From: a virus
Reading direction: 5' to 3' (one strand)
DNA: 42,934 bases
IMG/VR virus record: IMGVR_UViG_3300048121_000930
Span: 1-42,934 of that record
The notes under the pieces are model-generated. The model was not told the DNA's origin. It saw nothing but the letters and a program-made list of their open reading frames with translations, and did no database searches. Numbering within the stretch: the stretch's first letter is position 1; each line of letters starts with the position of its first letter. The translations under genes were made by a program, and so were the position numbers. Of the stretch, positions 5,439 through 26,520 are shown in pieces.

Positions 5439-5948
5439 ATGCAGAAAAACAAAAAAATAAGAAAGTGTGGTAGGGTCATCAAGAGACCATACATATCTAA
5501 AGATCAAGTCATGATACAATTAAAAAGTACACTTGATATCAGCGTTTTCAATAAAAAAAACTTACACAAGAGATATAGACCTTTGATTGAAGAAAGGTCG
5601 CAATGGTTTTACTTTCTTTACAGATACACTAGACTTAGTTTACAAGATATAGGAGGTATGTTTGGTAAAAACCACGCAACTGTCATCAACGCTATAAACA
5701 ACTATAATCAAACTCTTTTACTTTATCCAGGAGAGGTCACAGACAGACATCATATGCTAACTAATATATTTGAGCCTATTGCCGATAAAAATTACGCATA
5801 CCTTCAAAGAAGAAATTTAGGAAGAGACGATGCTATGGCTGATGACATTATATTGATTAAACAACGTCAAATGATTGGCAAGTTAATGCAAGCAAACCTG
5901 AAACTAATAGAAAGAATTAAACAGCTTGAAAGCGAGGCTCAAAAATGA
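5439..5948 (+). CDS. DnaA domain IV-like DNA-binding protein
   Basis: This 169-residue protein carries the DnaA C-terminal (domain IV) helix-turn-helix signature at residues 64-90: TRLSLQDIGGMFGKNHATV followed by INAINNYN. It matches the host motif 'IG..FG.r.HsTVi.A'. The AAA+ domain is absent. The N-terminus is basic and the C-terminus (about 138-167) looks like a coiled coil. It would be expected to bind DnaA-box-like sites, perhaps to mark the phage origin or compete with host DnaA. It overlaps the winged-helix replication gene by four bases, and the primase-helicase follows. Motif evidence is strong; the role is inference. Confidence 0.82.
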   Translation: MQKNKKIRKCGRVIKRPYISKDQVMIQLKSTLDISVFNKKNLHKRYRPLIEERSQWFYFLYRYTRLSLQDIGGMFGKNHATVINAINNYNQTLLLYPGEVTDRHHMLTNIFEPIADKNYAYLQRRNLGRDDAMADDIILIKQRQMIGKLMQANLKLIERIKQLESEAQK

Positions 5949-6598
5949 ATGGTTTTATAAAGCTAGAAAGAGGGATTTTTGATTGGGAGTGGTACACTGA
6001 ACAAGACACTTCTAGAATGTTTATCCATTTATTACTGAAAGCAAATCACAAGAAAGCAAGGGTCAATGGCAAGCTTATAGAAAGAGGTCAAACACTTACA
6101 TCTATACCAAGGCTTTCAGAACAATTATCTATGTCTTATTTCAAGGTAAGGAAGGCTTTAGCTAATTTAAAGAAGACTGGAGAGATTTCAATCAAGACAA
6201 CAAACAACTATTCCCTTGTAACTATCAGTAAATATAGTGAATACCAGGGATTCTATGACCCTAAGACCGCAGGCGAAAAACAGCCTGACGACAATCAAAA
6301 CACAACAAACAATAAGGATAATAATGTTAAGAATACTATAACAGAACTTAGGGAATGGAAAGAATGGTATTTAAACAATAACAGAATTATTGATTCAGTT
6401 TGTAAAAACAATAAGTTTGAGAGAAGCTTTGTTATATCTAATTTGGATGGCTTTATAAAGTATTCTGAGAACTTAGGCAACATTGAAGAATCTATTTATG
6501 AATACAATTCGCATTTTTTGAACTATCTACGCAAAATCAGAAAATCGATATTGAATGGATATAGAACCAAACAGGATCATAATAAATCAACATTTTAA
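5945..6598 (+). CDS. Phage winged-helix replication initiator/helicase-loader-like protein
   Basis: This gene encodes 217 residues. The first 100 match the winged-helix N-domain common in phage replisome organisers: GFIKLERGIFDWEWY, then FIHLLLKANH, then RGQTLTSIPRLSEQL with a recognition helix (YFKVRKALANLKKTGEI). A polar Asn-rich linker (about 110-130) leads to a helical C-domain, a DnaD-like layout. Such proteins bind origin DNA and help load the helicase. Its place between a DnaA-like gene and the primase-helicase, with overlaps on both sides, supports this. The specific subfamily is not certain. Confidence 0.75.
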   Translation: MNGFIKLERGIFDWEWYTEQDTSRMFIHLLLKANHKKARVNGKLIERGQTLTSIPRLSEQLSMSYFKVRKALANLKKTGEISIKTTNNYSLVTISKYSEYQGFYDPKTAGEKQPDDNQNTTNNKDNNVKNTITELREWKEWYLNNNRIIDSVCKNNKFERSFVISNLDGFIKYSENLGNIEESIYEYNSHFLNYLRKIRKSILNGYRTKQDHNKSTF

Positions 6599-8451
6599 TG
6601 AGAAACATAATTGAGTGGGAAACTATAGAGCAGTTAACACAAGGAAAAAGAGGAAAAGCATTAAAAATAGTATGTCCAAATTGTAAAGACCAACGATCAA
6701 ATAAAAGGGACAAGGCACTTAGTGTAAACTTAGATAAGGGAGTTGCAAAGTGTCACTACTGTGATTCAATATCATATCGTAGAGATAACATTAGCAGTAT
6801 TAAAAAAGAGTATACCTTGCCTGTTCAGACTTGGAAAAACTACACAGACCTGTCAGACAACTTAGTCAAGTACATTGATCAGAATAGAAAGATAAGACAG
6901 TCAACTTTAAAGGAACTTGGGGTCACACAAGAAAAGTACTATCAACCACAATTAGGCAAAGAAACAGAAAACATTGTTTTTAATTACTTTGAACTAAATA
7001 CTGTAGTCAACAAGAAATATAGAGATTCAAAAAAAAACTTTACACAGTCAAAAAACGGTAAAAGCATCTTTTACAACATAAATTCTATTATAGGGCAAGA
7101 TGAGGTTTATATTGTTGAAGGAGAGTTTGATGTCCTTGCCATGCACCAATCAGGTTACAAGAACACAATTAGTTTGCCAAATGGTGCAAACGATAATGAT
7201 GATGTGTGGATTAACTGCAAGGATTATGTATCTGACGTTAAAAAGTTTTATATATGCACAGATAATGATGCCTCTGGAGAAGAAGTTTCAGAGAAGATAG
7301 CACAAAGACTTGGCAGATATAGATGCGTAAGAGTATTATTTGAACACAAAGACGCTAATGGAGAGTTGGTTGAAAGGGGAGAGGAAGGTGTAAGAACGGC
7401 TGTAAACAACGCTAAATTTTACAAAAGTCAAGGCACTTTTACTGTTGATGACTTATATGATAATATAATGGACCTTCATGACCATGGAATACCAAAGACA
7501 TTGTTTCCTAAATCTAATTCTTTTATGGGTCTAGAAGATGCTTTTTCTGTATTGAGAGGACAGCTCGTGGTTGTTACAGGAATACCATCACACGGTAAGA
7601 GTACATTTTTAGAATGGTATGTAATGAACTTAGTCCAGGATTATAAAATGAAAGCATCGTTTTTTTCTCCTGAACACCATCCAATGGAATTGCATCAGAG
7701 TTTATTTATACAGAAGTTTTTTGGAAGAAACTTTTGGTATGACATGAATGGTCTACCAAGAATAACTAAAGAAGAAATAGACATCTACAAACAATGGGCA
7801 AACGAAAAGATATATTTAACCTCAACAAAGGACGGTGTATTTCCTAGGTGGGATTGGCTATTGGATGTTTTCAAAGAACAAGTTTTTGTATACGGCATAG
7901 ATATTTTTGTTATAGATGCTTTTAATAAACTTGAGTTTGATAATGTAAGCATAAATGAATTACAGAATATTAGGTCTACTCTTACTAAACTTACCATGTT
8001 CGCACAAATGAATAATGTTTTGCTGTTTCTAGTTGCTCATCCTAAAAAAATGGTAAAAAATGATAGGGGAATGTATTTAATGCCTGACCTTTATAGTATT
8101 AGTGGTAGTGCAGACTTCAGAAATCAAGCACATTCAGGATTTACAATATACAGGTACTTTGATGATTATGTTTCAAATGATGGAGACAATATTGAGGCAG
8201 GTCAAGTAGAATTCAAAACAAAGAAAATTAAAATGAGTTATCAAGGCGAGATGGGTAAGTCAGTTATTTTTAATTATCACAAACCTAGCGGAAGGTACTA
8301 CACAGGGGAAGAACCTCCTGTATACAGGCTTGACCAAAACAATTTGTCTAGCTTTGATGAGCTCATAGCTAAACAAAGTATCAACAATGTTAAAAACAAA
8401 ACCTTAAAGGATGCCTTTGGGAAAAAAGAAGAAAGCGGTTTACCATTCTAA
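6598..8451 (+). CDS. Bifunctional primase-helicase (T7 gp4-like)
   Basis: This 617-residue protein should unwind phage DNA and make primers at the fork. In order it has a zinc-binding element (C26-P-N-C29 and C52-H-Y-C55), a TOPRIM primase core (E174-G-E176 in VEGEFDVLA, and D222-N-D224 in CTDNDASG), and a DnaB-type RecA helicase domain. The helicase Walker A is GIPSHGKST at 328-336, and the Walker B-like strand IDIFVIDAFNKLE is near residue 430. The length is close to T7 gp4. It starts at the last base of the preceding gene's stop. No separate DnaB, DnaG or DNA polymerase lies in the window. Confidence 0.93.
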   Translation: MRNIIEWETIEQLTQGKRGKALKIVCPNCKDQRSNKRDKALSVNLDKGVAKCHYCDSISYRRDNISSIKKEYTLPVQTWKNYTDLSDNLVKYIDQNRKIRQSTLKELGVTQEKYYQPQLGKETENIVFNYFELNTVVNKKYRDSKKNFTQSKNGKSIFYNINSIIGQDEVYIVEGEFDVLAMHQSGYKNTISLPNGANDNDDVWINCKDYVSDVKKFYICTDNDASGEEVSEKIAQRLGRYRCVRVLFEHKDANGELVERGEEGVRTAVNNAKFYKSQGTFTVDDLYDNIMDLHDHGIPKTLFPKSNSFMGLEDAFSVLRGQLVVVTGIPSHGKSTFLEWYVMNLVQDYKMKASFFSPEHHPMELHQSLFIQKFFGRNFWYDMNGLPRITKEEIDIYKQWANEKIYLTSTKDGVFPRWDWLLDVFKEQVFVYGIDIFVIDAFNKLEFDNVSINELQNIRSTLTKLTMFAQMNNVLLFLVAHPKKMVKNDRGMYLMPDLYSISGSADFRNQAHSGFTIYRYFDDYVSNDGDNIEAGQVEFKTKKIKMSYQGEMGKSVIFNYHKPSGRYYTGEEPPVYRLDQNNLSSFDELIAKQSINNVKNKTLKDAFGKKEESGLPF

Positions 8452-12541: not shown

Positions 12542-12576
12542 AAAGAGGGAGCAATACAAGTTATTGTTCCCTTTTT
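12542..12576. terminator. Bidirectional terminator between converging gene blocks
   Basis: AGGGAGCAATA (12546-12556) pairs with TATTGTTCCCT (12562-12572) over 11 positions with one G-T. Flanking A/T pairs extend the stem, and T5 follows on the plus strand. The minus-strand version is followed by CTCTTTTCTC. The stop codon of the 2306-residue minus gene (12561-12563) lies inside it. The rest of the 128-base gap (12433-12560) holds only short stems such as ATTAAG-AG-CTTAAT (12493-12506) and no gene. Confidence 0.75.
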
Positions 12577-15500
12577 CTAACTCTAGTAATTTTTCCCTTT
12601 TTAGCTTGATCAATTATATATCCAGCTACACCTGCACTCTCTAATTGCTTTCTAATTTCAGAATGTTTCATTCCAAAATACAAACCTCCTCGATACAAGT
12701 TAACTAAATCAGCATAAGCTTCTCTTTTAGCTTCATCACTTTTTTCTAGTGCTATATTATATTCTTCTCTTGTTAACTCATCATTTTTAAGGCGTCTTTT
12801 TAATGAAGTCTTTGATGTGATGTTTCTTGCTCCATCTAATATACTCCTAGCAGTAAAAAACATAGACTTTTTGTAATCAACTTCTATAACCTTATATCCA
12901 GTAGCTTGTCCAATAGTCTCCATTAATTTATTTTCAGCTTGTGAAATTTTGATTGCACTTCTTACGGTTCCAGGTTCAAATGACTTCCATATTACTTGTG
13001 CACCTTTACCTAATTTAGTTCCAAAGCTGTCTTCATCTTTCCATATTGATCCTCCTGTAGGTTTTTCATTTTTAAGTACACTTGCAAGTGATCCATATAA
13101 GATGTCTTTGGCTGTAAAATCACCAAGTGCTTCGTCAAAGAATTCAAACGCAGCTGTACCTGGGTCTTGGTTGTTAGCTATTGCATTGATTGCTCTATCT
13201 ATTTGACCGTGTGGATTAGACGCACTCATATCTATATAGCTAAATTTTCCGTCTCCTGCTTTAACAATAATGTTTTTGCTGTTTTTTGCCCACGTAGGTC
13301 TAACAAGTCTTGCATATTTTTCTGATTCATCATCGTCAGGCGTAGCCCCTATAACATCTCCTACAAAATTAGTCAAAACGTAATGATACAATGATTGAAA
13401 TGCAATCACAGAAATTAATCTTTTAGCTCCTACTGACTTTAGTCCAGGCGTCCTAGATTCTTTTAGCCCAAGCTGAATAGTGTTATATGCCGTTCTATAA
13501 GATTCCATTTGGAATGATATAAACGTTCCAAACAATGGAATAGAACGCATTATTTCTCTTAATTGACCTATTCGACTATAATTAGGTATAATGTTTTTTG
13601 TGTTTTCAGAAGCTAATGATTCAATTTGTTGTTGCTGTTGTTCAGTTAATAATTTGAATGGTTTTTTGAATAATGATTCAGCATATCGTTTCTTTTCCAT
13701 TTCGAAAGAGACTATCTTAAAATAGTCATCCTCTAATTGATATGCCTTTTCAGCTGCTCCACCTACACCTTTATACCAGTTTTTTTTATGGAGGTGCCAG
13801 AAACGCATTTGTTTTCTTTCTAATAGAGAAGTTACGTCAATGTCTTTATCTTTACCAAACATTTCAAGTAATTCTGTCTTTACAACACTCTTATCTATGA
13901 TCCCTAAGTTAATATACTTTTCTAAGCTACTAGACAACTCAACTTCTCCTTTTAACTTAATCTGACCTATAACCTCGTTCCAGGCTTTTTGATAAGCCTT
14001 AGGGTCCATATATCCATTCTGAGCCATAAAGAAAATGTTACCAGTAATGTTTTTACCGTGAGTACCTACAGATAAAATTGTTTTTGAATATTTAACTCCT
14101 GCAACACCCTTAACATAATATCTATACGCTGGACTATTAAATATTTTACCATTCAATAGTGGCTCTCTCTTTATTGCTTCAGCAATCTCTGGTGTAGTTA
14201 TGAGTCCTGATAGTGGTGAGTAGCTGTCTGTAGTGGCTGGAGCAATCTCTGTAGTAAATCCATCAGGAATAGCAGGATCGCTTTTGTCAAAAAGAAACAC
14301 GTTCATACCTCTTTTTCTTATAGTTTCAAGGTACTTACCACTAGCTAAAAGATTAGAGACTCTAAAAATTGTTCTCTGATAGTTTTGCAATGGATCTTCA
14401 TATACGCCCATAAGCCTCATAATTGGCTCAGGTATTTCTTTTCTTCTTTTTAGTGCATTAGTATCTTTAGCACCTTCTCTCGAACTTTTAATAAAAGGGT
14501 TAGCATCACTCTTAGATAAGATTGCATTGACAGATTTATCTACAACTAAGTCTAGTGCTTGGTTGTAATCCATTATGCTGTCTTCTGATAAAGCTTGTGC
14601 CTCTTTTTGAATTTTGTCCGTTGTTCTTAAAAAGTTTTTTGCTTTTTGCACAATCTGTTGACCATCTTTTTTAGCTTGTAATTCAGCATTCCAGTCTTTA
14701 GAGTCAAATATCCTGTAAGATCTAGTAATGTAGTTACCTAATCCTTTCTCTACTGCCTCTCTCTGTCCCTGAGTTTGAAGATAACCACCATCTAACAATT
14801 GTTTTTGCAATACATCTATGTGAGACCTCATGTCTTGAGCAATATCTTTCATCTCTTCAGTAACGTAAACTTTATCTTGTTCATTTAATTTATATTCTTG
14901 TCCAGAAACAATCATATTAATTTGTTGAGACATGATTTTTAACTCTTCTCCTTTCAGTTTAGAATTCTTTACAGAGTTTACTAATTTATTAGAGGTAACC
15001 TGAGCCTGCTTTAATGAGGCTTGTACGGCACCGTCCATTTTCTCTAACTCTTGCTGTTGTGACTTTGCTAAATAACCTCTACTAGAAAGTAAGTTTCTAT
15101 ATATTACATCTAAAGTCTTGCTAAACGTGTTTTGTTTTGGATTAAATAGCCCCTCGTTTTTATATTCTTGTTTTTGATATTCGTTTCTAATTTCAATATA
15201 AGTGTCAACTATTTCTTTAGAATCATAATCTTCTTCAAGAGCTTCTTTAATTGCTTGTTGAGAATATTTTCTTTTTACAAGCTCAAGCATTAAATCTTTT
15301 ATGTTTTGTTTACTAAACTTAATACTACCAACTTCTTTTAATTTCTTTGCGTCTCCTTCAAACATACTCGATATAGCTCCATTAACAAAGTCGTCTAGTG
15401 TAATGTTTTGAAAGTCATCAGAGGACATTTGTGTAAACGCTTTAAACTTGCTTTTAATGTAATTGAACATTCCATTTAGCCAGTTTTTAAATCTAGATCT

Positions 15501-18500
15501 TAATGATGCCTGGACGATAGTCTCACCCTTATTAGAAATCAACTCAGCCATTGCCTCTTCTCTAGCCAGCTGTGTGTCTCCGTTTTCTAGTATAGACTTC
15601 TTAAGAGTATCTGTACCTTCTAACAGATTGTATCCTGATTGTAATAACTCAGGATTGTTTTCTCTAACATAGTCTTGCCATACGTGACTATATTCGTGTA
15701 GAAGCACCTTTGTATTTGCATAGTCTGGATTAATATAAATCTTAGGATTTCCGTTTTCTTCCACCGTCAAGCCATAAACAACATCGCCTTTCTTTACATA
15801 TTTTTTCACTGAAGGGTCTGCGATCTTTGCTGTGAACTCTTGCTCTGTGTCTACAACAGAAACATCAGGAAATGTAAGCTTTAACTGAGACATAAGTGTT
15901 CTCATTTCGCTTATTTTATCTGCGATTTGAATTCCTCTATAACCATAGAAACCTGCAACAGGTCCATTAGCCATGACAGCACTTTGTATTAGTTGATCTA
16001 CTGATTTGTTTGCAAATGTTTCTCTACCACCTTTAAGAGAAATTGCCTTTGCCATCATCTCTGGAAATAAATCCATAGCGTGCACAGGTTTCTTTAAAAT
16101 ACCAATCCTAGTTCCTTTGATTCCGTATGGATAGTTTTTGTGGTCTATCTGTCTTACTTCTGGATTCAATACGTCTACAGCTACAAGAGATATAATATGA
16201 CGTTGTGGTATAGCTGCTGTTGATGGCTCGGCTATTAAGTTTCTTATTGTTCTAGCATGTATTACATTTCTAAGATCAGGATTTAATCCATCTATTAATG
16301 CTTTTGCCACAGGTTTTTGAGCTTTACCTGGAACTGTGTCTTCGTTTATGTTTCCAGTAAACAGTAGACCTCCTATTGCCTTCCTAGTTGTTAAAGGCAA
16401 CTCAGTAATGTTAGCCATCACTTGATCAATAGTTTTGTATTTTTTTACAAATTCATTGACTTTCTTATTGTCCTTAGTTAATCTTAAGAGCTCTTTATAT
16501 GAACGTATTCTGTTTTTCTTAGGAATAGATTTCTCTACTAACTCAGCAGACTTTCTGTAAAGAGCCTCATTATTTAGTAGTCCATCATCACTCATTTTTA
16601 TAACAGCCATAGGTACATGTCCGTAAGGAATCTTACCTTGCTCCCATAACCTTTGAAATAAAGGAATGTTTTCTTGATATGTTTGTACTGCACGCTCTAT
16701 AGACTCATTACCTTTGGACTCTGTAGTGTTTGCCCAAGCTAAATCTTGATATAAAGAATTAAATCCTGATCCACCTTCATATGTTTGACCCTCAAATGTT
16801 CCAGTAGCAAGTTCATCTGAAATAGTAAACGTCATTGGGACGCCATTGTATTCCTTAATGTCTTCTATGATATTGGTATCTGGATACCTTTCTAATATTG
16901 ATTCAGTATTAACCTCAGCCTCTGTAGTTAAGTTAGATGGCTTATCAAATTGCAATACCTCAGCAGGCATTGAATTCATTTCAGATATCATTTGATCTAT
17001 GTCGTATGATATTTCCTGTTCTGTTTGTTCTTTGGAGTATTTAGGAGGTTTTCCTTGAATTTCTCTTATCTCATTAACCTCTATTTGTTCTGGAGTAAGT
17101 TTAACTTCAGCACCAGCCTTACCTGCTAACGCTTGCTCAACTTTGTTACGAAGAATTTGCCCTTCTGAACCTGCTTCGGCTGCACGTTTTCGAACATTTT
17201 GAAGAACTTGTTGTCTTTCCTCTTCTCCAATATATCTTGAATCTGCTGCTTTGATCTCTTTTGTCTCATAATTAACGTTGTTTTGTTCTAATTCATCGAG
17301 TAAACTTTCAAACTTTTGATCTATTTGTTCGTCTCTAAAGTCATGAATGTCAAACAAAGTTAATACATTTTGTTCTTCATTCAAAGTAAAATCAGTAATT
17401 CCTAACTTTTTAAGAGCGTCTAGTGTTGCTTGAGAATCACTAACAGACACCGAATAGATGTCAGCATTGTGCCTTTCACTGTCCCACTGAACCTCTTCAG
17501 ATGCAATGGTAGACTCTTGTATTTCTGGAGTTAACCCACCTAATAAAGATGCAAACTCCTCAACCTGATCTAAACTTTCCGCCTCTACATTCACTACGTT
17601 CGAAACTTCTGTTATTGGCTTACCAAGTTTTTCCATGTAGTAACCACCGATAGCCTGATCTATCCCATCTATCTTTATGCCTGTTACTTTTGCAACATCA
17701 TTTATTGTCTCTAAATAGACTTGATAATCTGAAGCCTGTCTTGCAGCTGAAGCATCATCAATTGATGAGATTTCTCTTTCATAAAAAGGAGCAACAGCTA
17801 CCTGTGCTTTTACTGGTTCAGGTCTTTTTTTTGCTTGGTCTCTTAATGTAGATAATTCTGTTGTTAAATTTCCAATTTTTCTTTGTAATGGACCAATATA
17901 TCTTTTTTTGGTTTGCAGATCTCTGTCTGTGTTTTCAATAATCTTAATGTTATTAGAGATTTTATTTAACTCCTCATAGATTTCCACAGCCCTATCGACT
18001 TCTTTTTCTTCCATTCTTTCGATAACATCTAAATTATCGTTTTGAATGTCACGCATCCTATCAAGCTCTGCTTGCTCAACTGCATCAAGAGATTTTAATT
18101 GTTCTGGGGTTACGTTTGGTCCATTCTTTTCGTTTTCAAGCTCATTTAAATTATCTAAAATTTCTTGTTGCTCACCATACTGTTCTTCTGTACGTAGCAT
18201 TGTAACTAGCTTAGGCAAGTTATTACCTGCATACTTAGCACCTCCAGTAATAATTCTGCCCCCAATAACACTTCCTTTTCCTCCAAGAACTCCGTTCATA
18301 AATGCATTAAACAATCTTCTTTTATTGCCTAATACATTGTCAGCTATCTGTCCTGAATATTCAGAAAAGTTTATATCTTCTCCTGACTCAACTCTTGCCT
18401 GTAGCCTTGCTATTTCTTCATTACTAAGGGATGCAATTTCTTGTCCTAATTCTTGACCAGCATTTTCTCCACCAACTTTTAAAAGATTTGCAAAAAACTG

Positions 18501-19481
18501 CTTAGCACCTGGGGTCATCCTACTTATAGCCTTGCTTATACTTTTTAGCCCATAGCTTTCTAGACTTGCCTGAAGACCTCCAATCAATGCAGGACCCAAT
18601 ATATCTGAATCACCATTTTCAATCAGCTCTTCATAGGTTACCCCCATTTCTTTAGCCTTTTCTGTATTGTAATCAATAATTGAACTAGCAATCATGTCAG
18701 AAGCAATACCTGACACACCACCTATTCTTGATCCAATTCCTGCACCAGCTAACGCACCTGCTGGTCCCCCTGTTACAAATCCTCCAGCTGCACCAATCCC
18801 AGCACCTACTGCTTGACCTACTGCTCTCTCTACAAAGCTTACGCCCAAACCTGTCAAAGCATTTACCGTGGTAGCTGCTACTTTATCAAAGTCAGACAGG
18901 TCAACGCCATCATCAAAACTTTCAAACGCATCGGCTGGCTCAATTACAGGAAGTATTTTTGCACTTAATCTGTTAAGTTCTAAATCTTCAGCTTGCATAT
19001 TTGTGAGGTCACCAGTAGAAGCATAGTATACTTTTTTCATTCTATTGTCCCATCCAGACAATTGAGTCCACATGTTGTTCCAAGAATTTACTCTAGACTG
19101 ACCAGGCGTTAATTCAGGCTCACCATCTAAGGTTTTCTGTACTGCTTCTCTGTTTTTGTCTGCATTTTCTAACTCATCCTCTAATGTCAATGTGCTTTGC
19201 GAACTGCCTGACTGAACACTGTCTACTTTATGAGTCTTCATGTGCTCAGGAAGAGTAAGTAAAAATTTATCTTCAACGTGCTTCTTTAATGGTTTTTCTA
19301 TTCCAAGAAGTGTCTTGAATGATTCGATGTCTTTATCGTATCCATTCTCTTTTGCTAAACCATAAACATCGGTTAAAGCATTTTCATTATCTCTAAGCAA
19401 GTGGTGGAAATCTACTATATTCCCAGTATAACCTGATTCGCTTGATATATTAAACAAGTCGAGAAGTGCGTCATCGTTCAT
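12561..19481 (-). CDS. Giant internal virion/ejection protein with HExxH metallopeptidase motif
   Basis: This 2306-residue protein is likely packed in the virion and ejected with the DNA. Residues 6-60 hold two copies of a 'L..lY.LAkEnGY.kdIe.F..LL' helical repeat common at the start of large phage internal proteins. Residues about 200-275 are a Gly/Ala-rich hydrophobic stretch that could enter a membrane. Long helical and coiled regions follow (about 430-560). A zincin motif HEYSH lies at 1262-1266, with a downstream acidic helix (EEAMAELIS) as in gluzincins. The C-terminal third resembles the helical parts of phage polyvalent proteins. It is the last gene of the virion operon, as for T7 gp16. 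The HExxH site is seen directly; the ejection role is inference. Confidence 0.8.
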   Translation of the reverse strand: MNDDALLDLFNISSESGYTGNIVDFHHLLRDNENALTDVYGLAKENGYDKDIESFKTLLGIEKPLKKHVEDKFLLTLPEHMKTHKVDSVQSGSSQSTLTLEDELENADKNREAVQKTLDGEPELTPGQSRVNSWNNMWTQLSGWDNRMKKVYYASTGDLTNMQAEDLELNRLSAKILPVIEPADAFESFDDGVDLSDFDKVAATTVNALTGLGVSFVERAVGQAVGAGIGAAGGFVTGGPAGALAGAGIGSRIGGVSGIASDMIASSIIDYNTEKAKEMGVTYEELIENGDSDILGPALIGGLQASLESYGLKSISKAISRMTPGAKQFFANLLKVGGENAGQELGQEIASLSNEEIARLQARVESGEDINFSEYSGQIADNVLGNKRRLFNAFMNGVLGGKGSVIGGRIITGGAKYAGNNLPKLVTMLRTEEQYGEQQEILDNLNELENEKNGPNVTPEQLKSLDAVEQAELDRMRDIQNDNLDVIERMEEKEVDRAVEIYEELNKISNNIKIIENTDRDLQTKKRYIGPLQRKIGNLTTELSTLRDQAKKRPEPVKAQVAVAPFYEREISSIDDASAARQASDYQVYLETINDVAKVTGIKIDGIDQAIGGYYMEKLGKPITEVSNVVNVEAESLDQVEEFASLLGGLTPEIQESTIASEEVQWDSERHNADIYSVSVSDSQATLDALKKLGITDFTLNEEQNVLTLFDIHDFRDEQIDQKFESLLDELEQNNVNYETKEIKAADSRYIGEEERQQVLQNVRKRAAEAGSEGQILRNKVEQALAGKAGAEVKLTPEQIEVNEIREIQGKPPKYSKEQTEQEISYDIDQMISEMNSMPAEVLQFDKPSNLTTEAEVNTESILERYPDTNIIEDIKEYNGVPMTFTISDELATGTFEGQTYEGGSGFNSLYQDLAWANTTESKGNESIERAVQTYQENIPLFQRLWEQGKIPYGHVPMAVIKMSDDGLLNNEALYRKSAELVEKSIPKKNRIRSYKELLRLTKDNKKVNEFVKKYKTIDQVMANITELPLTTRKAIGGLLFTGNINEDTVPGKAQKPVAKALIDGLNPDLRNVIHARTIRNLIAEPSTAAIPQRHIISLVAVDVLNPEVRQIDHKNYPYGIKGTRIGILKKPVHAMDLFPEMMAKAISLKGGRETFANKSVDQLIQSAVMANGPVAGFYGYRGIQIADKISEMRTLMSQLKLTFPDVSVVDTEQEFTAKIADPSVKKYVKKGDVVYGLTVEENGNPKIYINPDYANTKVLLHEYSHVWQDYVRENNPELLQSGYNLLEGTDTLKKSILENGDTQLAREEAMAELISNKGETIVQASLRSRFKNWLNGMFNYIKSKFKAFTQMSSDDFQNITLDDFVNGAISSMFEGDAKKLKEVGSIKFSKQNIKDLMLELVKRKYSQQAIKEALEEDYDSKEIVDTYIEIRNEYQKQEYKNEGLFNPKQNTFSKTLDVIYRNLLSSRGYLAKSQQQELEKMDGAVQASLKQAQVTSNKLVNSVKNSKLKGEELKIMSQQINMIVSGQEYKLNEQDKVYVTEEMKDIAQDMRSHIDVLQKQLLDGGYLQTQGQREAVEKGLGNYITRSYRIFDSKDWNAELQAKKDGQQIVQKAKNFLRTTDKIQKEAQALSEDSIMDYNQALDLVVDKSVNAILSKSDANPFIKSSREGAKDTNALKRRKEIPEPIMRLMGVYEDPLQNYQRTIFRVSNLLASGKYLETIRKRGMNVFLFDKSDPAIPDGFTTEIAPATTDSYSPLSGLITTPEIAEAIKREPLLNGKIFNSPAYRYYVKGVAGVKYSKTILSVGTHGKNITGNIFFMAQNGYMDPKAYQKAWNEVIGQIKLKGEVELSSSLEKYINLGIIDKSVVKTELLEMFGKDKDIDVTSLLERKQMRFWHLHKKNWYKGVGGAAEKAYQLEDDYFKIVSFEMEKKRYAESLFKKPFKLLTEQQQQQIESLASENTKNIIPNYSRIGQLREIMRSIPLFGTFISFQMESYRTAYNTIQLGLKESRTPGLKSVGAKRLISVIAFQSLYHYVLTNFVGDVIGATPDDDESEKYARLVRPTWAKNSKNIIVKAGDGKFSYIDMSASNPHGQIDRAINAIANNQDPGTAAFEFFDEALGDFTAKDILYGSLASVLKNEKPTGGSIWKDEDSFGTKLGKGAQVIWKSFEPGTVRSAIKISQAENKLMETIGQATGYKVIEVDYKKSMFFTARSILDGARNITSKTSLKRRLKNDELTREEYNIALEKSDEAKREAYADLVNLYRGGLYFGMKHSEIRKQLESAGVAGYIIDQAKKGKITRVRKREQ

Positions 19482-19494
19482 GCTGACTATTATA

Positions 19495-21069
19495 TTAGTA
19501 TTTACTCATTACATTTTTAGCGGAGTTAGAGCCTCCAGCTTTTGCTGATCTTACTTGATCCCATTGCTTAGAACTTATTGTTCCAAGACCGAAACCTCCT
19601 CTAAATTTGTTTACATCTTCAAGATTGTCATAATCTAACTTAACCACTTTTGTTTCAGTTTTCGTTCCAGCTTCTGGGTCTTCAATATCTATTGGTACTT
19701 CATATTCGTATTGAAATTCTACCTGGAATATACCTTCATCTATGTAATCGTTAGCACCTATGATTTTAGCATTCTTTATGGCGTCTTGACCAGAAACAGT
19801 TACGTCTGGACCTTCTGGCATAACTCTATTTGTAGTAAGAGATATTTCTTTTAGTGCCTCTCTTTGAAACTTATCATCAAACGTAAGTCCTGTAGCCTGC
19901 AAACCTCTTAGATCTGTTGGAACATATTGAATTCTATCTCCCCTACCATCTTTAGCATCTCTACTCAGAACATTTGCTGCACTAACTAATGGCTCTTTTG
20001 TAGCATCTTTTATTCGTGATGCTTTGGCAGCTGGGTCTTCATATGGTTTAGAAGATTCCATTGCACGTAGTTCATTCATTAGTTTGTTATTCAACCCTTG
20101 CTTTAAAGCATCATCAATAGCTTTTACTTTTTCTGGGTTGTCTTCGTATCCTAAAACATCTGCATCTGTAATCCCCATTTCCTCAAAGTCACCGCCTAAT
20201 TTTTTAAGGGCATCTAATTTTTCTGTAGGAGACAATCCCTTTATGGCAACAGACATCAACTCGTCTTGATCTGGACTAAGCTTTCTTCCGCCTTCGCCAT
20301 CAGGTTGAGTATATCTTGTGTATTCACGACTACCAGACCTGTATATATCACCAGCTTTTTCTAGATTTCTAATGCGGTCTGTCATCGTATTAAGATCTGT
20401 ACCTGGCTCATTCTGTAACATACTTGTAAGCTTGCTCATTGGCATTCTAGTAGCTTTACTCATGTCAACTTTACCGTCTTCACCTAAAGCAACTTCACCT
20501 GTTCCTGGCGTTCTAATTTCTACATTACCATTAGCATCCACTCCAAAAGCTACATTTTTTGTCATAGCTTCTAACTGTCTAAGCTTCATATGGTCAGCCT
20601 CAGAGTCTTTACCTGCTTGCACTTTTGAATCAAGTTCTTTTTTAAAAGCGGAGATCTTATCATATACACCAGATTTTAGACTTCCAATCTGTCCTTTCAT
20701 CCTAGTGTTTCTACGTCTCACCTCATTCTCATCAATCTTACCCATTCGGTATAGTTGCTGAGTCATTTCATATTCTGACTTTAATACATTAGCTAACTTC
20801 TGACCAGCTGCATCCACATCTGTAATGCCTGTATCATCAAATTGATCTTCATATGCTAATGCACCATATAAGTCTTGTTGTTCTTTTTGAAAGTCTTCAC
20901 GTGCTTTGGTAAATTCTTTTTGAGCTGTTTGCTCTCTTACCATTTTTCTTTCGGCTGCATCTCCAGCTCGAAAAGCAATGTCCGCAAACCCTGGTGTACT
21001 ACCAGAACCACGTCTACCACCTGTCTGACCTTGTGCTGCATAACCTGCTGCTAATGCTCCTTTTGCCAT
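19495..21069 (-). CDS. Probable internal virion protein
   Basis: This gene encodes 524 residues. It has a Gly/Ala-rich N-terminus (GALAAGYAAQGQTGGRRGSG), long charged helices (about 55-170), then a mixed region and a beta-rich C-terminus containing VDIEDPEAGTKTETKVV-like acidic strands. No enzyme motif is visible. It lies between a gp14-like protein and the giant internal protein, the place of T7 gp15 in the ejection set, which suggests a core or channel component. It is separated from the next gene by 13 bases. I do not recognise a specific family. Confidence 0.65.
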   Translation of the reverse strand: MAKGALAAGYAAQGQTGGRRGSGSTPGFADIAFRAGDAAERKMVREQTAQKEFTKAREDFQKEQQDLYGALAYEDQFDDTGITDVDAAGQKLANVLKSEYEMTQQLYRMGKIDENEVRRRNTRMKGQIGSLKSGVYDKISAFKKELDSKVQAGKDSEADHMKLRQLEAMTKNVAFGVDANGNVEIRTPGTGEVALGEDGKVDMSKATRMPMSKLTSMLQNEPGTDLNTMTDRIRNLEKAGDIYRSGSREYTRYTQPDGEGGRKLSPDQDELMSVAIKGLSPTEKLDALKKLGGDFEEMGITDADVLGYEDNPEKVKAIDDALKQGLNNKLMNELRAMESSKPYEDPAAKASRIKDATKEPLVSAANVLSRDAKDGRGDRIQYVPTDLRGLQATGLTFDDKFQREALKEISLTTNRVMPEGPDVTVSGQDAIKNAKIIGANDYIDEGIFQVEFQYEYEVPIDIEDPEAGTKTETKVVKLDYDNLEDVNKFRGGFGLGTISSKQWDQVRSAKAGGSNSAKNVMSKY

Positions 21070-21076
21070 GTCTTAA

Positions 21077-21853
21077 TTAATTTGATGTAGATGTAAACGG
21101 ATTAGTTTGATTAGAGAATCCTAATCTCTTGTTGTAGGTTGGAGCTTGAAAGTTGTTTGCACTTGTCGAGCCTTGTCCTAAACCAGAAGCTATTGGCTGG
21201 AATCTAGTAGCATTGCCTATTTGTGGCATAAATGAACCTCCTGAAATAGCTTGTGCTTCTGGGCTTAATCCTTGAAAGAATTGTGATCCTGCAGCTTGTT
21301 TTTGTAATGCTTCTGTTCCTGCTCCTTCTATTACAGGTTTTGCATCTGGAATTGCTTGTCCTAATGCCGCTGCTGAGGATGCTACACCTTGTATTCCTGT
21401 CCACATTTGCTCTCTGCCAGCTGCCATCTCTTGACCAAGACCAGCAATCTCAGTTGATTCACGCTTCTCTCTCATCCCTCTAATATTAGCTTCTTCTTGT
21501 GCAACTGCTTGTTGTCTTGCAACCTCTTGTCTATCTAAGTCTGCTGCTATTTGTTGTTGCACCTGTGCTTGTTGAGCTCCTACTTGACCTGCACCACCTA
21601 CAATACCACGAACACCGCCAGACCTTAGAGCCTGTACAGTGCTTTCAGCTTGTCTTGTTGCTGATAAAGTTTGCATTTCTGCACCTAAAGTAGAAACCCT
21701 TAGGTCTTTAGCTACGTTTTGAAGTTCTTGTCTTTGGAAATTTTCTAGGGCTTTCTTCGCCTCTTTAGCCCTCTTCGCACCTTGTACAGCTTGTGCAGCT
21801 CCTGCTGCTGCTGTTACTCCTAGTGCTATTGCTGTTGCTGTTGCTACTGCCAT
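21077..21853 (-). CDS. T7 gp14-like internal virion protein B
   Basis: This gene encodes 258 residues. The N-terminus is a hydrophobic Ala-rich segment (TATAIALGVTAAAGAAQAV), followed by long Gln/Ala-rich helices (about 25-150) and a flexible Gly/Asn/Ser-rich C-terminus. This composition and order are typical of podoviral internal core protein gp14, which forms part of the channel across the outer membrane during ejection. The two following genes encode larger internal proteins, as in T7 (gp15, gp16). Assignment is by composition and position rather than by a diagnostic motif. Confidence 0.65.
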   Translation of the reverse strand: MAVATATAIALGVTAAAGAAQAVQGAKRAKEAKKALENFQRQELQNVAKDLRVSTLGAEMQTLSATRQAESTVQALRSGGVRGIVGGAGQVGAQQAQVQQQIAADLDRQEVARQQAVAQEEANIRGMREKRESTEIAGLGQEMAAGREQMWTGIQGVASSAAALGQAIPDAKPVIEGAGTEALQKQAAGSQFFQGLSPEAQAISGGSFMPQIGNATRFQPIASGLGQGSTSANNFQAPTYNKRLGFSNQTNPFTSTSN

Positions 21854-22272: not shown

Positions 22273-23274
22273 TTATAGATTACGGTATCTAGAGCGTATT
22301 TCATCAATGATATGAGTGGATATAAGATACTCCTTGTTAGGATCTAATTGATCTATTTGCCATTCAGGGTTTCCACACTTGTCATGCATCCACAAAAAAG
22401 CGGAGTATTTATAGACAGTCATCATAGAAAAGAAGGTGTCTAACGCCTCTTTCTTATCGGTTCTATAGTTTGTCCATTCTGGATTGTCTTTTTCTATAGC
22501 CCAAACATCACATATAGGACCTCCATACCAGCATCTATCCCAGTACGAGGCTACTCCAACGTGACTTTCGTATAAATACAATAAGTTTAAAGTCATATTA
22601 AACTTCAGTCCTATGTCATGTAGGTGTTTCTTTATCACCTCAAGTGTTAGTCTTTGCCAAGAAAATTCATCTCCAATATAAACAGCATCTGTTCTAGAAG
22701 TAAATCTATCATCGTGTAGCATTTCTCTTATCATGTAATGCTCAGGATCAAAGTTAACCCAGCAATCATTCCTTGGGAATATAGGTATGTGGTCATACCC
22801 CCTAACCTCTCTATGCCTTCCTGGAATACAATCCTCTGGTGTTAGTTTATTGTAGTGACACGTATGTGGGTCATATGAAGCACAGAAAGCATTTGACAAT
22901 GTGCTTGTACTAGGCATAGTTCTAAAGCATATGTCGTCTGTATCTATATAGCTACCCCCATATTTATAAATTAGAAGCAGTCTAAATAAGTCTGATCTCT
23001 CTCTTGGTGAGGTTGAGTTATATATGTTTTTAATTTCTTTTATATTCTCCAGGTCTTCTATAGGACTATATATACTATCGTCCCACGTTACTATTTGAAT
23101 CCCATACTTAGGATCAAACATATCTTGATGTAACGAATTTGTTATAAGATATATTGGTCTGTTTTGATTGTGATATCTTGCTGAGTACAATGCATCGTCC
23201 AGTATTTTTTTTCGCTCTGGAGATATTGGACCATCCCAGTAGTAGATTAGATTGTGTTTATTTTTTTGGATCAT
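22273..23274 (-). CDS. Glycosyltransferase, GT32-like (DXD)
   Basis: This gene encodes 333 residues. The opening IPRIIHYxWxG-type strand is represented by NLIYYWDGPISPERK. The sugar-nucleotide signature SDLFRLLLIYKYGGSYIDTD sits at about 93-112. It is the classic GT32 / capsular-polysaccharide 'R.D..R..iLy.yGGiY.D.D' motif, with the metal-binding DTD. A Trp/His-rich C-terminal part follows. It should transfer a sugar from a nucleotide donor in the cytoplasm. It is the last of four glycosyltransferase genes in a tight run; its start overlaps the preceding gene by 17 bases. The acceptor is unknown. Confidence 0.85.
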   Translation of the reverse strand: MIQKNKHNLIYYWDGPISPERKKILDDALYSARYHNQNRPIYLITNSLHQDMFDPKYGIQIVTWDDSIYSPIEDLENIKEIKNIYNSTSPRERSDLFRLLLIYKYGGSYIDTDDICFRTMPSTSTLSNAFCASYDPHTCHYNKLTPEDCIPGRHREVRGYDHIPIFPRNDCWVNFDPEHYMIREMLHDDRFTSRTDAVYIGDEFSWQRLTLEVIKKHLHDIGLKFNMTLNLLYLYESHVGVASYWDRCWYGGPICDVWAIEKDNPEWTNYRTDKKEALDTFFSMMTVYKYSAFLWMHDKCGNPEWQIDQLDPNKEYLISTHIIDEIRSRYRNL

Positions 23275-23911
23275 ATTTAGATTTATATGTTTTTATATCT
23301 TTATCCTGTATTGGTCTGAACTCTGATTTATTAGAAGTAACAGATACCTTGTCCGTGTACAGATAAAGGTTTCTAATGAACCATCCATTTCCTTTCACAT
23401 GGTTTAGTAAGTAATCATCTCCACACGCTATTTTCAAGTCTTCTGGTATATTTACCCAATTTGATTTCTTGATAAAAAACAAACAACCCCATCCCCATCC
23501 ACGTTCTATTCCATCTTGGGGCTGCTTGCCTATCATGTAACTTCCATCGCCTTCTACCTCTGGATAATAGTTTGCTGAGTGCATTCCTATTACACCTTTG
23601 TCTATGTGTTGCTCGGCAAAGTCTAGCACATCAATTGAGTCAAAGAGTATGTCATCATTTGCTACACATATGTTTTCATTCTTTGCAGTATGTACGCCTA
23701 AGTTCCAGGCAGGATTCACATAGATGTTTTCTTTTTGTTCTAGCAATACAATTTTAGGAGAAGAAACTCTCAGTATTCTAGCTTTTGGATTGTTGTCTAT
23801 GATTATAATCTCACTAACACGTTCATCTTCTATCATGCAAGTAAGCATATAGTTTATTCTAGGTGATGCCCATAACGTAGGAACTATAACACTAAAGGGC
23901 TGCTTTGTCAT
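23258..23911 (-). CDS. GT2-family glycosyltransferase
   Basis: This gene encodes 217 residues with the GT-A fold order of family 2. FSVIVPTLW at the N-terminus is followed by IIIIDNNP, a NPAWNLGVHTAKNENICVAN stretch and the metal-binding NDDIL. GWGWGCLFFIKKS and a GDDYLL acceptor/catalytic region come next. It is compact for the family but has the main landmarks. It overlaps both neighbours, so it is translated as part of the glycosyltransferase run. A nucleotide-sugar-dependent transfer in the host cytoplasm is expected. Confidence 0.82.
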   Translation of the reverse strand: MTKQPFSVIVPTLWASPRINYMLTCMIEDERVSEIIIIDNNPKARILRVSSPKIVLLEQKENIYVNPAWNLGVHTAKNENICVANDDILFDSIDVLDFAEQHIDKGVIGMHSANYYPEVEGDGSYMIGKQPQDGIERGWGWGCLFFIKKSNWVNIPEDLKIACGDDYLLNHVKGNGWFIRNLYLYTDKVSVTSNKSEFRPIQDKDIKTYKSKYDPKK

Positions 23912-24590
23912 CTTTTTCTCTTATTTGACCGTAATAGTCTGCTATAAACTTAGGCTTCAAATGGTATATTCCAGACTCTTTCATGTCATTGTCTACTCTC
24001 TGAAACATTTCTTCTTGCTTTACGTCTCCCATACCTGATATATGATAGGTGCTCATGCCCCATCTGTATATCATAGACATCTCAGGATACTCATGTATCT
24101 TAGCGTTATGAAAGAATGTAAGCCAATTGTCTTCACCAAAAGACTGATCAATCCATTCTATTCTCGATATATAATCTTTACTATATATGTTTCCGTTGTT
24201 TATAGAGCTACCTCTGTCTTGATATTCGTTGTTGCTAAAGAAGTAATGACCTTCTGATCTATAAACCTCGAAGTCTGGATTCTCTGTAATCACTTTCTTT
24301 GCATCTCTCAGACTAAACTCTGTTAGCAAATCATCATCGTCTAGTCTAAACATATATTTGTTTTTGGCAAATGAAAATGCAAACTTTAGTTTTGCTAGTA
24401 TAGAAGGAAATCTTTCAGTGTGATTTATAATCTTCACTCTGTCATCTACATCGTCTAGCAAATACTTTACTTCTGGTGCGTCATTTACGATGATCATCTC
24501 AGTATCTTTCTCATTCTGTCTTAAGAAAGATTCTATAGCCTCTTCAAGTATGTGGTGTCTTTTGTAGGTTAGTGTTACTACTGATATCAT
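23892..24590 (-). CDS. GT2-family glycosyltransferase
   Basis: This gene encodes 232 residues. ISVVTLTYKRHHILEEAIES and MIIVNDAPE at the N-terminus, then the strong metal site MFRLDDDDLL, identify a family 2 GT-A enzyme. The C-terminal half has the typical aromatic acceptor region (RIEWIDQSFGEDNWLTFF). It starts four bases before the end of the upstream glycosyltransferase (ATGA-type overlap) and overlaps the next by 20. The donor sugar cannot be read from the sequence. Confidence 0.83.
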   Translation of the reverse strand: MISVVTLTYKRHHILEEAIESFLRQNEKDTEMIIVNDAPEVKYLLDDVDDRVKIINHTERFPSILAKLKFAFSFAKNKYMFRLDDDDLLTEFSLRDAKKVITENPDFEVYRSEGHYFFSNNEYQDRGSSINNGNIYSKDYISRIEWIDQSFGEDNWLTFFHNAKIHEYPEMSMIYRWGMSTYHISGMGDVKQEEMFQRVDNDMKESGIYHLKPKFIADYYGQIREKDDKAAL

Positions 24591-25564
24591 GCTCCTGTTG
24601 TTATGGTTACGTACTCTCCTGTATCAGGATTAAGAACTTGCACAAGATGTTCTTCTTCTTTTTGCAAAGCTTCTTTAACCATCTCATAGTACTTGTGTCC
24701 ACAGGTACTTGTCTCGTAGGTTTTATTTAAAGGGGGAAATTCATTCATGTATAGTGCCTTGAAGAACTGTTTGTCGTTCCCAGCAACTACGCCAGCGTTG
24801 TGATAGATTGCGTTCTTATCCCATTGGTCTATTCCAGATGTGGACCAAGAAAAGTCCAGCTCTGGTATAACCATTGTTTGGTTTCCTCTTTTCCAAAGAT
24901 TCCAAAGTACAGCCCACATATCAGCACACCATATCTGCACCTCGTGGTGACTAGAATCCGCTTCCTTCTTTTCTCCATTAAGCTTAGATATCTCTACATA
25001 TAATCTAGTACAGTCTCTTTCCACATCCCTCCAGTAGAACTTGTCTATGTTCTTAATCATGTATTGAGCTCCTCCTGAATGATGTTGATTTTTTTTAACT
25101 GTCTCTTCATCTATAGCCATGATAGTTAACATCTTCTCCAGAACATCTCTGCCCTTTGAGAGTATGTAGTCGTATCCTATATAAGATATGGTGTCTGATA
25201 AATAACATATCTCATCCCTGGTTAACTTTTCTGTTGGTAAGGGTTTAGTTAATGCAATATCACAGTCGTGATAGAATATGTGATGCTTATATAAGTCTGG
25301 ATATTTGTCGAAGTGTTTTTGTAATATGTGCGGTCTTATGCTAGATATGTATCCACGTTCTGCTCTAGTGTCCTCGTAGAATTCAAAGGTTACGCCAGGA
25401 TATTTTGTAGCCATAAGTTCATAGTGTGGGTCTACATTTCCATGTATAGCACAAACTATATGAACATCTTCTAAGTTTACATTCTGTTTTCTGAAAGAGT
25501 GGAGCATGGTATCTATTTGCCATGCATAGTATTTGGTTGCTGGTTGAGCACAAATGTATTTCAT
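24587..25564 (-). CDS. GT-A glycosyltransferase, possibly peptide O-glycosyltransferase-like
   Basis: This gene encodes 325 residues. The opening YICAQPATKYYAWQIDTMLH, then HHIFYHDCDIALTKPL with the DxD metal site, HHSGGAQYMIKN and DMWAVLWNLWKRGN define a GT-A enzyme. The combination DxD, then GGAQY, then a Met/Trp helix reminds me of plant-type peptidyl-serine galactosyl- and hydroxyproline arabinosyltransferases. That similarity is from memory and weak. It is first in the run of four, two bases after the tail-protein gene. A protein acceptor such as the Thr-rich adhesin encoded upstream is an attractive possibility. Confidence 0.7.
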   Translation of the reverse strand: MKYICAQPATKYYAWQIDTMLHSFRKQNVNLEDVHIVCAIHGNVDPHYELMATKYPGVTFEFYEDTRAERGYISSIRPHILQKHFDKYPDLYKHHIFYHDCDIALTKPLPTEKLTRDEICYLSDTISYIGYDYILSKGRDVLEKMLTIMAIDEETVKKNQHHSGGAQYMIKNIDKFYWRDVERDCTRLYVEISKLNGEKKEADSSHHEVQIWCADMWAVLWNLWKRGNQTMVIPELDFSWSTSGIDQWDKNAIYHNAGVVAGNDKQFFKALYMNEFPPLNKTYETSTCGHKYYEMVKEALQKEEEHLVQVLNPDTGEYVTITTGA

Positions 25565-25566
25565 AA

Positions 25567-26520
25567 TTATGGGTAGCTCTTAGAGATCTCCGAGTTTACG
25601 GCAAAAATCTCTATAGGCTCGGTACTATTGTTAGTTAATTTAATTTCTGCATAGTACCCCTTCAAACCATAACTTTCAGCAATAGGATTCTTAGCGGAGA
25701 ACATAAAGTCTCCTGGATTCACAACAACAGATGACCCACCCAATATGAGTGACTGATCTGTTCTTTCTGATACATTTCCTATAAACTGATATGAACCACC
25801 AACGGCTCTAAATAATGCGTCTCCAACTGATATATTGTTGGGGACAAGATTAAACGTGTAAGTTAAATTATCGAGTAGTACTAAATTTCCAATGCCTTGC
25901 ACAGATAACAACTCAGGTTTAGCTGCATCTGATTCATCACGTCTTATATATGAATAGTATTGACCTTCTTTTTCCTTGAATGATTCTTTGTTTACATGAC
26001 CTCTGTCTAAATCCGTAAGTATAGTTACATCCCAGTTTCCGTTGTCTCCCTCTATTTCTATTGTCTTAAATATCTTAACCTCTGATGGCGATGCGTTAGA
26101 TACAAAGGTAACCTCTGTATTGTACTCTTCACCATAGAAAGTGTTTCTGGAGTCTTCGTTTGCATGATGTTTCCACAGCTGACCATCTTTAAATGTATAG
26201 AAATCACTGTTCATGTTGATCATGTTTTCAGGAAGATACGAATAAAATGTAGTCCATCCTTTATTATATTCAGAGAATGCTAATGTTTTTTCTTCACCAT
26301 CTCCTTTTGTTGGATTTACATACTCATCTAATATGCTGTCTGGCTCAATAGGTAGTGAGTATTCTCCAGGAGGCACAGGGTTAACTGGACACTGATCTGT
26401 AAGATACTTTGGTCTATAGTCTGGATCACCAGGAAGGTTCTCCTTTACCTGATTGGTTGCCTTACCATTAACGTATTTTCTGAGGCGTTTTACCTCCGCA
26501 TAACCTGATCTATACTTCAT
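25567..26520 (-). CDS. Tail/virion structural protein
   Basis: This gene encodes 317 residues. A Pro-rich N-terminal half (residues about 25-75) leads to a central stretch. There, GWTTFYSYLPENMINMNSDF, FKDGQLWKHHAN, NTFYGEEYNTEVTFVSN and KIFKTIEIEGDNGNWDV match a module I recall from large virion proteins of crAss-like and other Bacteroidetes phages. The C-terminal 100 residues are beta-rich, like a receptor-contact or jelly-roll domain. No signal peptide is present. It follows the Asp-box protein and precedes the glycosyltransferases. It is likely a tail-associated protein; the precise place in the virion is unknown. Confidence 0.7.
   Translation of the reverse strand: MKYRSGYAEVKRLRKYVNGKATNQVKENLPGDPDYRPKYLTDQCPVNPVPPGEYSLPIEPDSILDEYVNPTKGDGEEKTLAFSEYNKGWTTFYSYLPENMINMNSDFYTFKDGQLWKHHANEDSRNTFYGEEYNTEVTFVSNASPSEVKIFKTIEIEGDNGNWDVTILTDLDRGHVNKESFKEKEGQYYSYIRRDESDAAKPELLSVQGIGNLVLLDNLTYTFNLVPNNISVGDALFRAVGGSYQFIGNVSERTDQSLILGGSSVVVNPGDFMFSAKNPIAESYGLKGYYAEIKLTNNSTEPIEIFAVNSEISKSYP

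Follow-up and report, generated by a model that had tools for sequence, protein, structure and literature searches.

A putative zincin-like metallopeptidase and its partner domain in a polyvalent, Pachyviridae-like ejection-type phage protein

Zincins are the commonest domain of polyvalent proteins, very large multidomain phage proteins of the injected kind with a mix-and-match architecture (PMC5512222). Zincin domains in injected polyvalent proteins, including the virion RNA polymerase (vRNAP) of phage N4, have already been published (PMC5512222; PMC12633501). Phage-injected proteases were predicted in 2017 from domain architecture (PMC5512222), and the accessible portions of this literature mention no demonstrated substrate for them. 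Here we describe a predicted protein of this type encoded in the IMG/VR virus record IMGVR_UViG_3300048121_000930, a 42.9-kb stretch of DNA that was analysed whole and is referred to below as the window. The protein comprises 2306 amino acids (aa), begins with ATG and is encoded at 12561..19481, stop codon included; it lies on the minus strand, as do all its parts, a detail missing from the first-pass annotation, which had otherwise delimited this open reading frame (ORF) correctly.

The locus shares with the published polyvalent zincin-like metallopeptidases (PMC5512222) the placement of HExxH on one helix and of a Glu on the next, as well as the size and modular architecture of the surrounding protein. 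Unlike them, the clade found here has no Pfam or PHROG match in the window and comes joined to a dedicated upstream domain that is absent from Pfam. Phage N4 offers a second parallel, since its vRNAP (gp50, accompanied by gp51 and gp52) is a giant ejected protein in which a largely helical C-terminal part of about 1000 residues (C2) comes after an HExxH domain (C1) (PMC12633501), and the three late genes stand in equal order; unlike N4 vRNAP, the 2306-aa protein has no RNA polymerase match in Pfam, PHROGs or NCBIfam. Homology between its C-terminal module and N4 C2 was expected and found no support (hhalign E 0.11, probability 0.5%; single-sequence E 0.16). Like T7 gp16 and the tetrameric ejection protein PhiM1 gp48, it would be the largest of three internal proteins; unlike T7 gp16, it carries a predicted protease in place of a transglycosylase, for which Pfam, PHROGs and NCBIfam gave no match. 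The closest named counterparts belong to Pachyviridae: gp123 of phage phi18:3 shares the C-terminal module and the position in the three-gene set and lacks the zincin, whereas gp74 of Tenacibaculum phage Gundel_1 shares the zincin and that position and has another C-terminal block and no detectable counterpart of the upstream domain. Against this background, the zincin clade, its partner domain and their placement in a Pachyviridae-like ejection protein seem new as judged from Pfam, PHROGs and NCBIfam for the 2306-aa protein and from the literature searched; PMC5512222 divides polyvalent zincins into 12 clades. Among the open-licence PMC papers listed by the searches, we recognised none on a metallopeptidase in Pachyviridae or on polyvalent phage proteins with a YTH/EVE domain, and protease terms had no match in PMC8954989.

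The predicted zinc-binding and catalytic motif, HEYSH, occupies residues 1262-1266 (15684..15698), directly after the stretch NTKVLL, and is the sole HExxH of the protein. It is followed by AREEAMAELIS, which contains Glu1308-Glu1309; Glu1309 (15555..15557), a candidate third zinc ligand, stands 43 residues past the second His. The first-pass annotation had correctly placed HEYSH, the preceding hydrophobic stretch and EEAMAELIS about 40 residues downstream. The composition of the protein predicts 0.016 HExxH motifs, and 32 of 2000 shuffled versions contained one. By itself a lone motif is suggestive, and its conservation in homologues is what decides.

Residues 780-1440 were modelled with AlphaFold2 from 63 rows (the window plus IMG/VR loci), and the model reached a predicted local distance difference test score (pLDDT) of 88.3 and a predicted template modelling score (pTM) of 0.81. 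When model residues 412-601, corresponding to residues 1191-1380 of the protein (15342..15911), were compared with known structures by VIA-align, zincins were retrieved at Z 3-6.7. They include anthrax lethal factor (4xm8, 1j7n; Z 5.9) and an entry for a related toxin (Z 6.7, 150 residues aligned), the lethal factor and toxin rows together spanning Z 5.7-6.7, then IrrE (Z 5.2, 20% identity over 91 residues) and ArdC (Z 5.2), and next ACE2, BlaR1, MATCAP and others. The modelled domain runs through a helix, a short strand, another helix and three strands (model residues 447-451, 454-461 and 467-471) into the active-site helix. HEYSH lies on this helix (478-496, equal to 1257-1275 of the protein), the first of the C-terminal core, and Glu1309 on the second core helix, a long one (524-549, equal to 1303-1328). 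The fold call rests on the VIA-align matches and on the helix placement of HEYSH and Glu1309; we hold to it despite modest Z scores because the matched rows share one fold, the motif sits on the expected helix and Glu1309 sits on the next long one. A gluzincin-like metallopeptidase fold of residues 1191-1380 is thus supported by the model. The first-pass annotation had arrived at the same assignment and had added that the lack of a third ligand or of a zincin fold in a model would speak against it; in the model of residues 780-1440 the zincin fold is present, and the candidate third Glu is invariant among relatives.

Seven positions (H1262, E1263, H1266, W1268, G1283, E1309 and G1319) are invariant in all 63 rows of alignment A3, and the positions neighbouring H1262, E1263, H1266 and E1309 are mostly variable in homologues. 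Conservation of HExxH in A3 is partly given by construction, as 77 of the 80 source loci match only the fetch pattern that contains HExxH and not the Glu pattern. Because the A3 fetch pattern itself contained the motif, new loci were fetched via the upstream domain, with a pattern lying outside the zincin, and H1262, E1263, H1266 and E1309 proved to be kept in 28 of 28 distinct homologues. This zincin-independent set started from 34 ORFs; three were set aside as cut by contig ends, and four of the remaining 31 carried a duplicated zincin, which leaves 27 distinct sequences, the extra one in the count of 28 being likely the contig-cut ORF L251, which extends 231 aa beyond the upstream domain. 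Since the ligands are invariant among relatives only 29-46% identical to the window, the sequences argue for selection on a working site, that is, for an HExxH plus Glu1309 site that would be catalytically intact.

Near-duplicates were dropped by eye to give A3 (63 of 68 sequences) and a second alignment, A4 (71 of 79); a third, A5, holds 34 of 63. Sequence profile searches of the PDB with A3, A4 and A5 gave no informative relative, and Pfam, PHROGs and NCBIfam gave no match to the zincin of the 2306-aa protein. A PHROG named as metallo-protease was matched by two of the 63 A3 members at E 0.0004, too thin a basis, and the name was not used.

Residues 859-1189 (15915..16907), just upstream of the zincin, form a conserved partner domain that is YTH/EVE-like (PUA-like) by model only. 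Invariant or nearly so are Asp889, Gly903-904, Ala-Trp-Ala 915-917, Tyr935, Trp946, Asn971-Glu972, Arg976, His1114, Asn1116 and Tyr1117, with D889, W916, N971, H1114, N1116 and Y1117 belonging to those conserved in 56 or more of the 63 rows. In the window the domain matches no Pfam family above cut-off and likewise nothing in PHROGs or NCBIfam. The zincin is present in 31 of 31 loci that carry this domain and extend far enough. Overall, the domain was found in 103 ORFs (a number that includes repeated contigs, as the locus sets overlap), 101 of which have the zincin, the remaining two being cut by contig ends; conversely, 69 of 170 zincin ORFs are devoid of the domain. This coupling is firm: the domain depends on the protease and the protease does not depend on the domain. 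The domain, unnamed before and new here, occurs with this zincin only in the loci examined, its half of the two-domain unit never appearing without the protease; the unit, of about 580 residues, is compact, expressible and modelled with high confidence.

The model of residues 859-1189 matched several YTH domains by VIA-align at Z up to 6.3, together with entries 2p5d (Z 6.1) and 1zce (Z 4.7), which we take to be EVE proteins. Rows of YTH/EVE type make up 17 of the first 27, at Z 4.7-6.3 over 117-148 residues, and such scores, being below 8, may reflect a common arrangement. The aromatic positions W916, W946 and Y935 are conserved. Unlike YTH/EVE domains, the modelled domain contains a large helical insertion and has no sequence-profile match: among 10 records, none was matched by the profiles PF04146 and PF01878, even with E allowed to reach 10. 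The model thus hints weakly at modified-base readers, which we treat as a lead. An unlikely extension of this lead is that the domain reads a modified base in host or phage RNA or DNA and positions or activates the adjacent zincin, so that a host protein on modified nucleic acid, e.g., a defence factor, would be destroyed in the first minutes of infection.

The two-domain unit is not tied to the rest of the protein. Residues of about 790-1420 match L014, L015-L023 and many other loci at 30-43% identity, and residues 1440-2306 (12564..15164), a conserved, all-helical, putative delivery module, match a different, overlapping set composed of phi18:3, Pseudoalteromonas phage vB_Pun_Y3, HTVC027P and hundreds of viral contigs. 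Among 600 pattern matches listed for this module, at least 540 are stretches of viral contigs, in which the N-terminal cargos are many and varied. The zincin, in turn, occurs with at least two other C-terminal blocks unrelated by BLAST to that of the window (68 and 2 sequences versus 11). That the block of the 68 carriers would be the same module was expected and remained unsupported (hhalign E 0.0012, probability 20%, 129 columns). In relatives whose 3′ end is complete, 1095-1781 aa follow the motif in 60 of 63 distinct ORFs, and the other three are split genes; the length before the motif lies between 649 and 2943 aa in 58 of these relatives.

The C-terminal module was modelled as almost entirely helical (pLDDT 85.4). 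Its best PDB matches are chains of phage ejection machinery, the PhiM1 ejectosome 8vb2_A (Z 7.8, root-mean-square deviation (rmsd) 7.7 Å over 256 residues) and the E1004 core 9vvp_L (Z 6.9), which at an rmsd of about 8 Å are only suggestive; assorted helical proteins follow below them. Among predicted viral structures, the model matched a protein of phi19:3 (E 2.6e-29) and many proteins whose names refer to large polyvalent protein-associated domains.

This module is found with the zincin described here, with other HExxH domains or with none. In 54 complete proteins, the non-redundant part of 65, HExxH occurs upstream of the module in 33, compared with 0.47 in shuffles (at most 3 of 54 in 300 shuffles); further controls were four alternative arrangements of these letters and spacings of 1-3. 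The proportion is 29 of 49 when the count is restricted to loci retrieved through the C-terminal module alone, which removes the window, L002, L009, L016 and L022. HExxH or its variant HExxxH is present in 37 of 54, and the regions bearing them fall into nine BLAST clusters; 21 of 54 relatives have no HExxH and 17 have neither motif. Because 33 proteins have HExxH and 21 do not, the metallopeptidase is, as judged from these sequences, a frequent yet dispensable cargo and not a scaffold. That one delivery module carries nine sequence-separable kinds of HExxH/HExxxH region suggests fast turnover of the metallopeptidase slot, as expected of weapons in phage-host conflict. The HExxxH spacing variant was described in 2017 (PMC5512222); in relatives with the same module, we observed it as HETIAH, HEVVGH and similar motifs in L125, L127, L132, L135, L143-L145, L148, L149, L157, L161 and L163.

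The gene for the 2306-aa protein belongs to a putative three-gene ejection set on the minus strand, with the genes for a 524-aa protein (19495..21069) as the second and a 258-aa protein (21077..21853) as the third member. The late gene order 2306-524-258 aa, with the 2306-aa protein the largest, parallels those of phi18:3, Gundel_1 and N4 gp50-51-52. The 258-aa protein is homologous to phi18:3 gp120, a structural protein by tandem mass spectrometry (MS/MS), and to Gundel1_72, annotated as structural. The 524-aa protein has homologues in L015, L016 and L018 and positional equivalents elsewhere; in phi18:3 its position is taken by gp121, an MS/MS-detected structural protein with no BLAST match to it. 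The homologue over the C-terminal module, phi18:3 gp123, is likewise annotated as structural from MS/MS, and the zincin protein of Gundel_1 (gp74) carries the label structural in its record. The first-pass annotation had called the 2306-aa protein an internal virion protein, which gains indirect backing from synteny and from the C-terminal homology with gp123 and does not extend to the zincin, absent from that homologue. From these homologues we infer that the protein is present in the virion, and its gene position suggests that it is ejected.

The major late genes of the window match PHROG structural families. Annotated tblastn relatives of the 2306-aa protein number 12 records, among them Cellulophaga phages phi18:3, phi13:2 and phi19:3, Pseudoalteromonas phage vB_Pun_Y3 and a spring-water podovirus, along with phage 023Pt_psg01, Pelagibacter phage HTVC027P and Tenacibaculum phage Gundel_1. 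Both phi18:3 and Gundel_1 are classed in Pachyviridae, and Gundel_1 is of podoviral morphology (PMC8776804). Zincin relatives in genome contigs (41 loci) bear mostly Bacteroidota titles. Because of these titles and of the named phage relatives, the window probably represents a short-tailed phage of a Bacteroidota host, the host being deduced from the titles and annotations of relatives.

We propose, with a probability of roughly 0.48, that the 2306-aa product serves a short-tailed phage as a polyvalent ejection protein and that its zincin is an injected effector cleaving host proteins, steered by the upstream domain. The C-terminal 870 residues and the two neighbouring gene products would constitute the delivery machinery, and the N-terminal two thirds would be exchangeable cargo. 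The protein would be packaged in the head, as its homologues indicate, and ejected into the host with the DNA or ahead of it, as the gene position indicates. Early in infection, the zincin may then act intracellularly, cutting a single host protein or a small number of them, with residues 859-1189 selecting or positioning its substrate. We favour action on host proteins after entry because of the dedicated neighbouring domain, the turnover of cargo and the absence of the zincin from many relatives. Several points weigh against this reading. Foldseek alone, run against the PDB with the zincin block, returned no E below 0.25, and every zincin fold match has a Z below 8. Glu1309 is no more than a candidate third ligand, proposed from its helix position and conservation. 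The homologue detected in virions, phi18:3 gp123, lacks the zincin, so that packaging of the zincin itself is putative. Motif, fold, invariant ligands, modularity and domain coupling were computed; zinc binding, protease activity and a host target are predictions from sequence and model. Moreover, intact active sites are equally well explained if the zincin cuts the polyvalent protein to which it belongs.

Such self-processing, whether it took place within the capsid, during passage through the channel or once inside the host, would free the modules from one another, as proposed for P1 DdrB. It is the main rival, nearly as good as an effector cleaving host proteins, and we regard it as possible, if doubtful. 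Iyer et al. (2017, PMC5512222) report that DdrB undergoes processing to about 76 kDa ahead of packaging and propose autoproteolysis by polyvalent zincins; according to the same paper, delivery occurs without processing for N4 vRNAP and for TraC1 and ArdC, two plasmid proteins. The border between zincin and C-terminal module looks like a natural break: the module is a separate gene in vB_Pun_Y3, and in L056, L060 and L065 the ORF stops 204-274 aa past the motif with a large ORF downstream, although contig errors are possible there. On the other hand, the 21 of 54 delivery-module relatives without HExxH (17 of them without HExxxH as well) imply that processing is not generally needed, and a dedicated partner domain suits choice of substrate better than general processing.

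It is very unlikely that, as ejection proceeds, the zincin works on the cell wall or within the periplasm, in the manner of the T7 gp16 transglycosylase. Ejection proteins do cross the periplasm (PMC11440229), and the Gly/Ala-rich hydrophobic, Gly-zipper-like segment at residues 199-275 (18657..18887) could lodge in a membrane. This segment, noticed near residues 200-275 in the first reading of the sequence, consists of Gly and Ala to 40%, and to 60% in its best 40-residue stretch, at residue 222; the match of the protein to the Pfam Gly-zipper family YMGG stayed under the cut-off (E=1.1). However, the structural matches are mixed zincins, including the intracellular IrrE and ArdC, and not specifically wall hydrolases; Pfam, PHROGs and NCBIfam reveal no muralytic domain in the 2306-aa protein; and many relatives with the same delivery module have no metallopeptidase motif. 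Nothing, then, points to the host envelope, where the first-pass annotation had suggested that the enzyme could act; its alternative, action on proteins of the cytoplasm, may hold, and self-processing was not among its readings. Least probable of all is a structural or degenerate zincin, in which the fold would survive as a building block or to serve ejection, without proteolysis. The HExxH domain C1 of N4 vRNAP, to which the accessible text of PMC12633501 assigns no activity, would be a precedent, yet all four catalytic or ligand residues are invariant in the 28 zincin-independent homologues while most adjacent positions vary. The question of the substrate can be addressed in Gundel_1, a relative that carries the zincin and is in culture.

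Residues 1-62 of the protein (19296..19481) form a tandem N-terminal module made of two copies of a ...GY...F..LL unit. Altogether, 45 large ORFs begin with this module, and 41 of these also encode the zincin; the copy in the 2306-aa protein shows 34% identity to residues 7-67 of an ORF of MW202828. We consider it a candidate packaging or ejection signal. The 45 ORFs that bear it differ in their C-terminal blocks, and an extra copy is found in a separate 782-aa ORF of L133. In L010 (MW202828.1), a 3865-aa protein has HExxH at residues 1621 and 2506, the second belonging to the zincin clade described here; its label "reticulocyte binding/rhoptry protein" looks like a misannotation.

Several other genes of the window were noted. 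A 1399-aa protein with a GTG start (30627-34826, minus strand) contains long Thr/Ser/Pro runs between repeated short domains and has no Pfam match. A 169-aa protein encoded on the plus strand (5439-5948), near the primase-helicase gene (6598-8451), contains a DnaA C-terminal helix-turn-helix (PF08299, above cut-off). Four consecutive minus-strand genes between the tail-region and ejection genes (22273-25564) represent a sugar-transfer cluster in the late operon: two products score above the cut-off of glycosyltransferase Pfam families (PF04488, PF00535), one just below it (PF00535), and the fourth belongs to PHROG 4417 of unknown function. Next to them lies the gene for a 317-aa protein (25567-26520, minus strand), whose last 240 residues reappear in most of the fetched relatives a short way upstream of the ejection genes, in some cases inside larger proteins, as if they formed a conserved attachment or chaperone-like domain.

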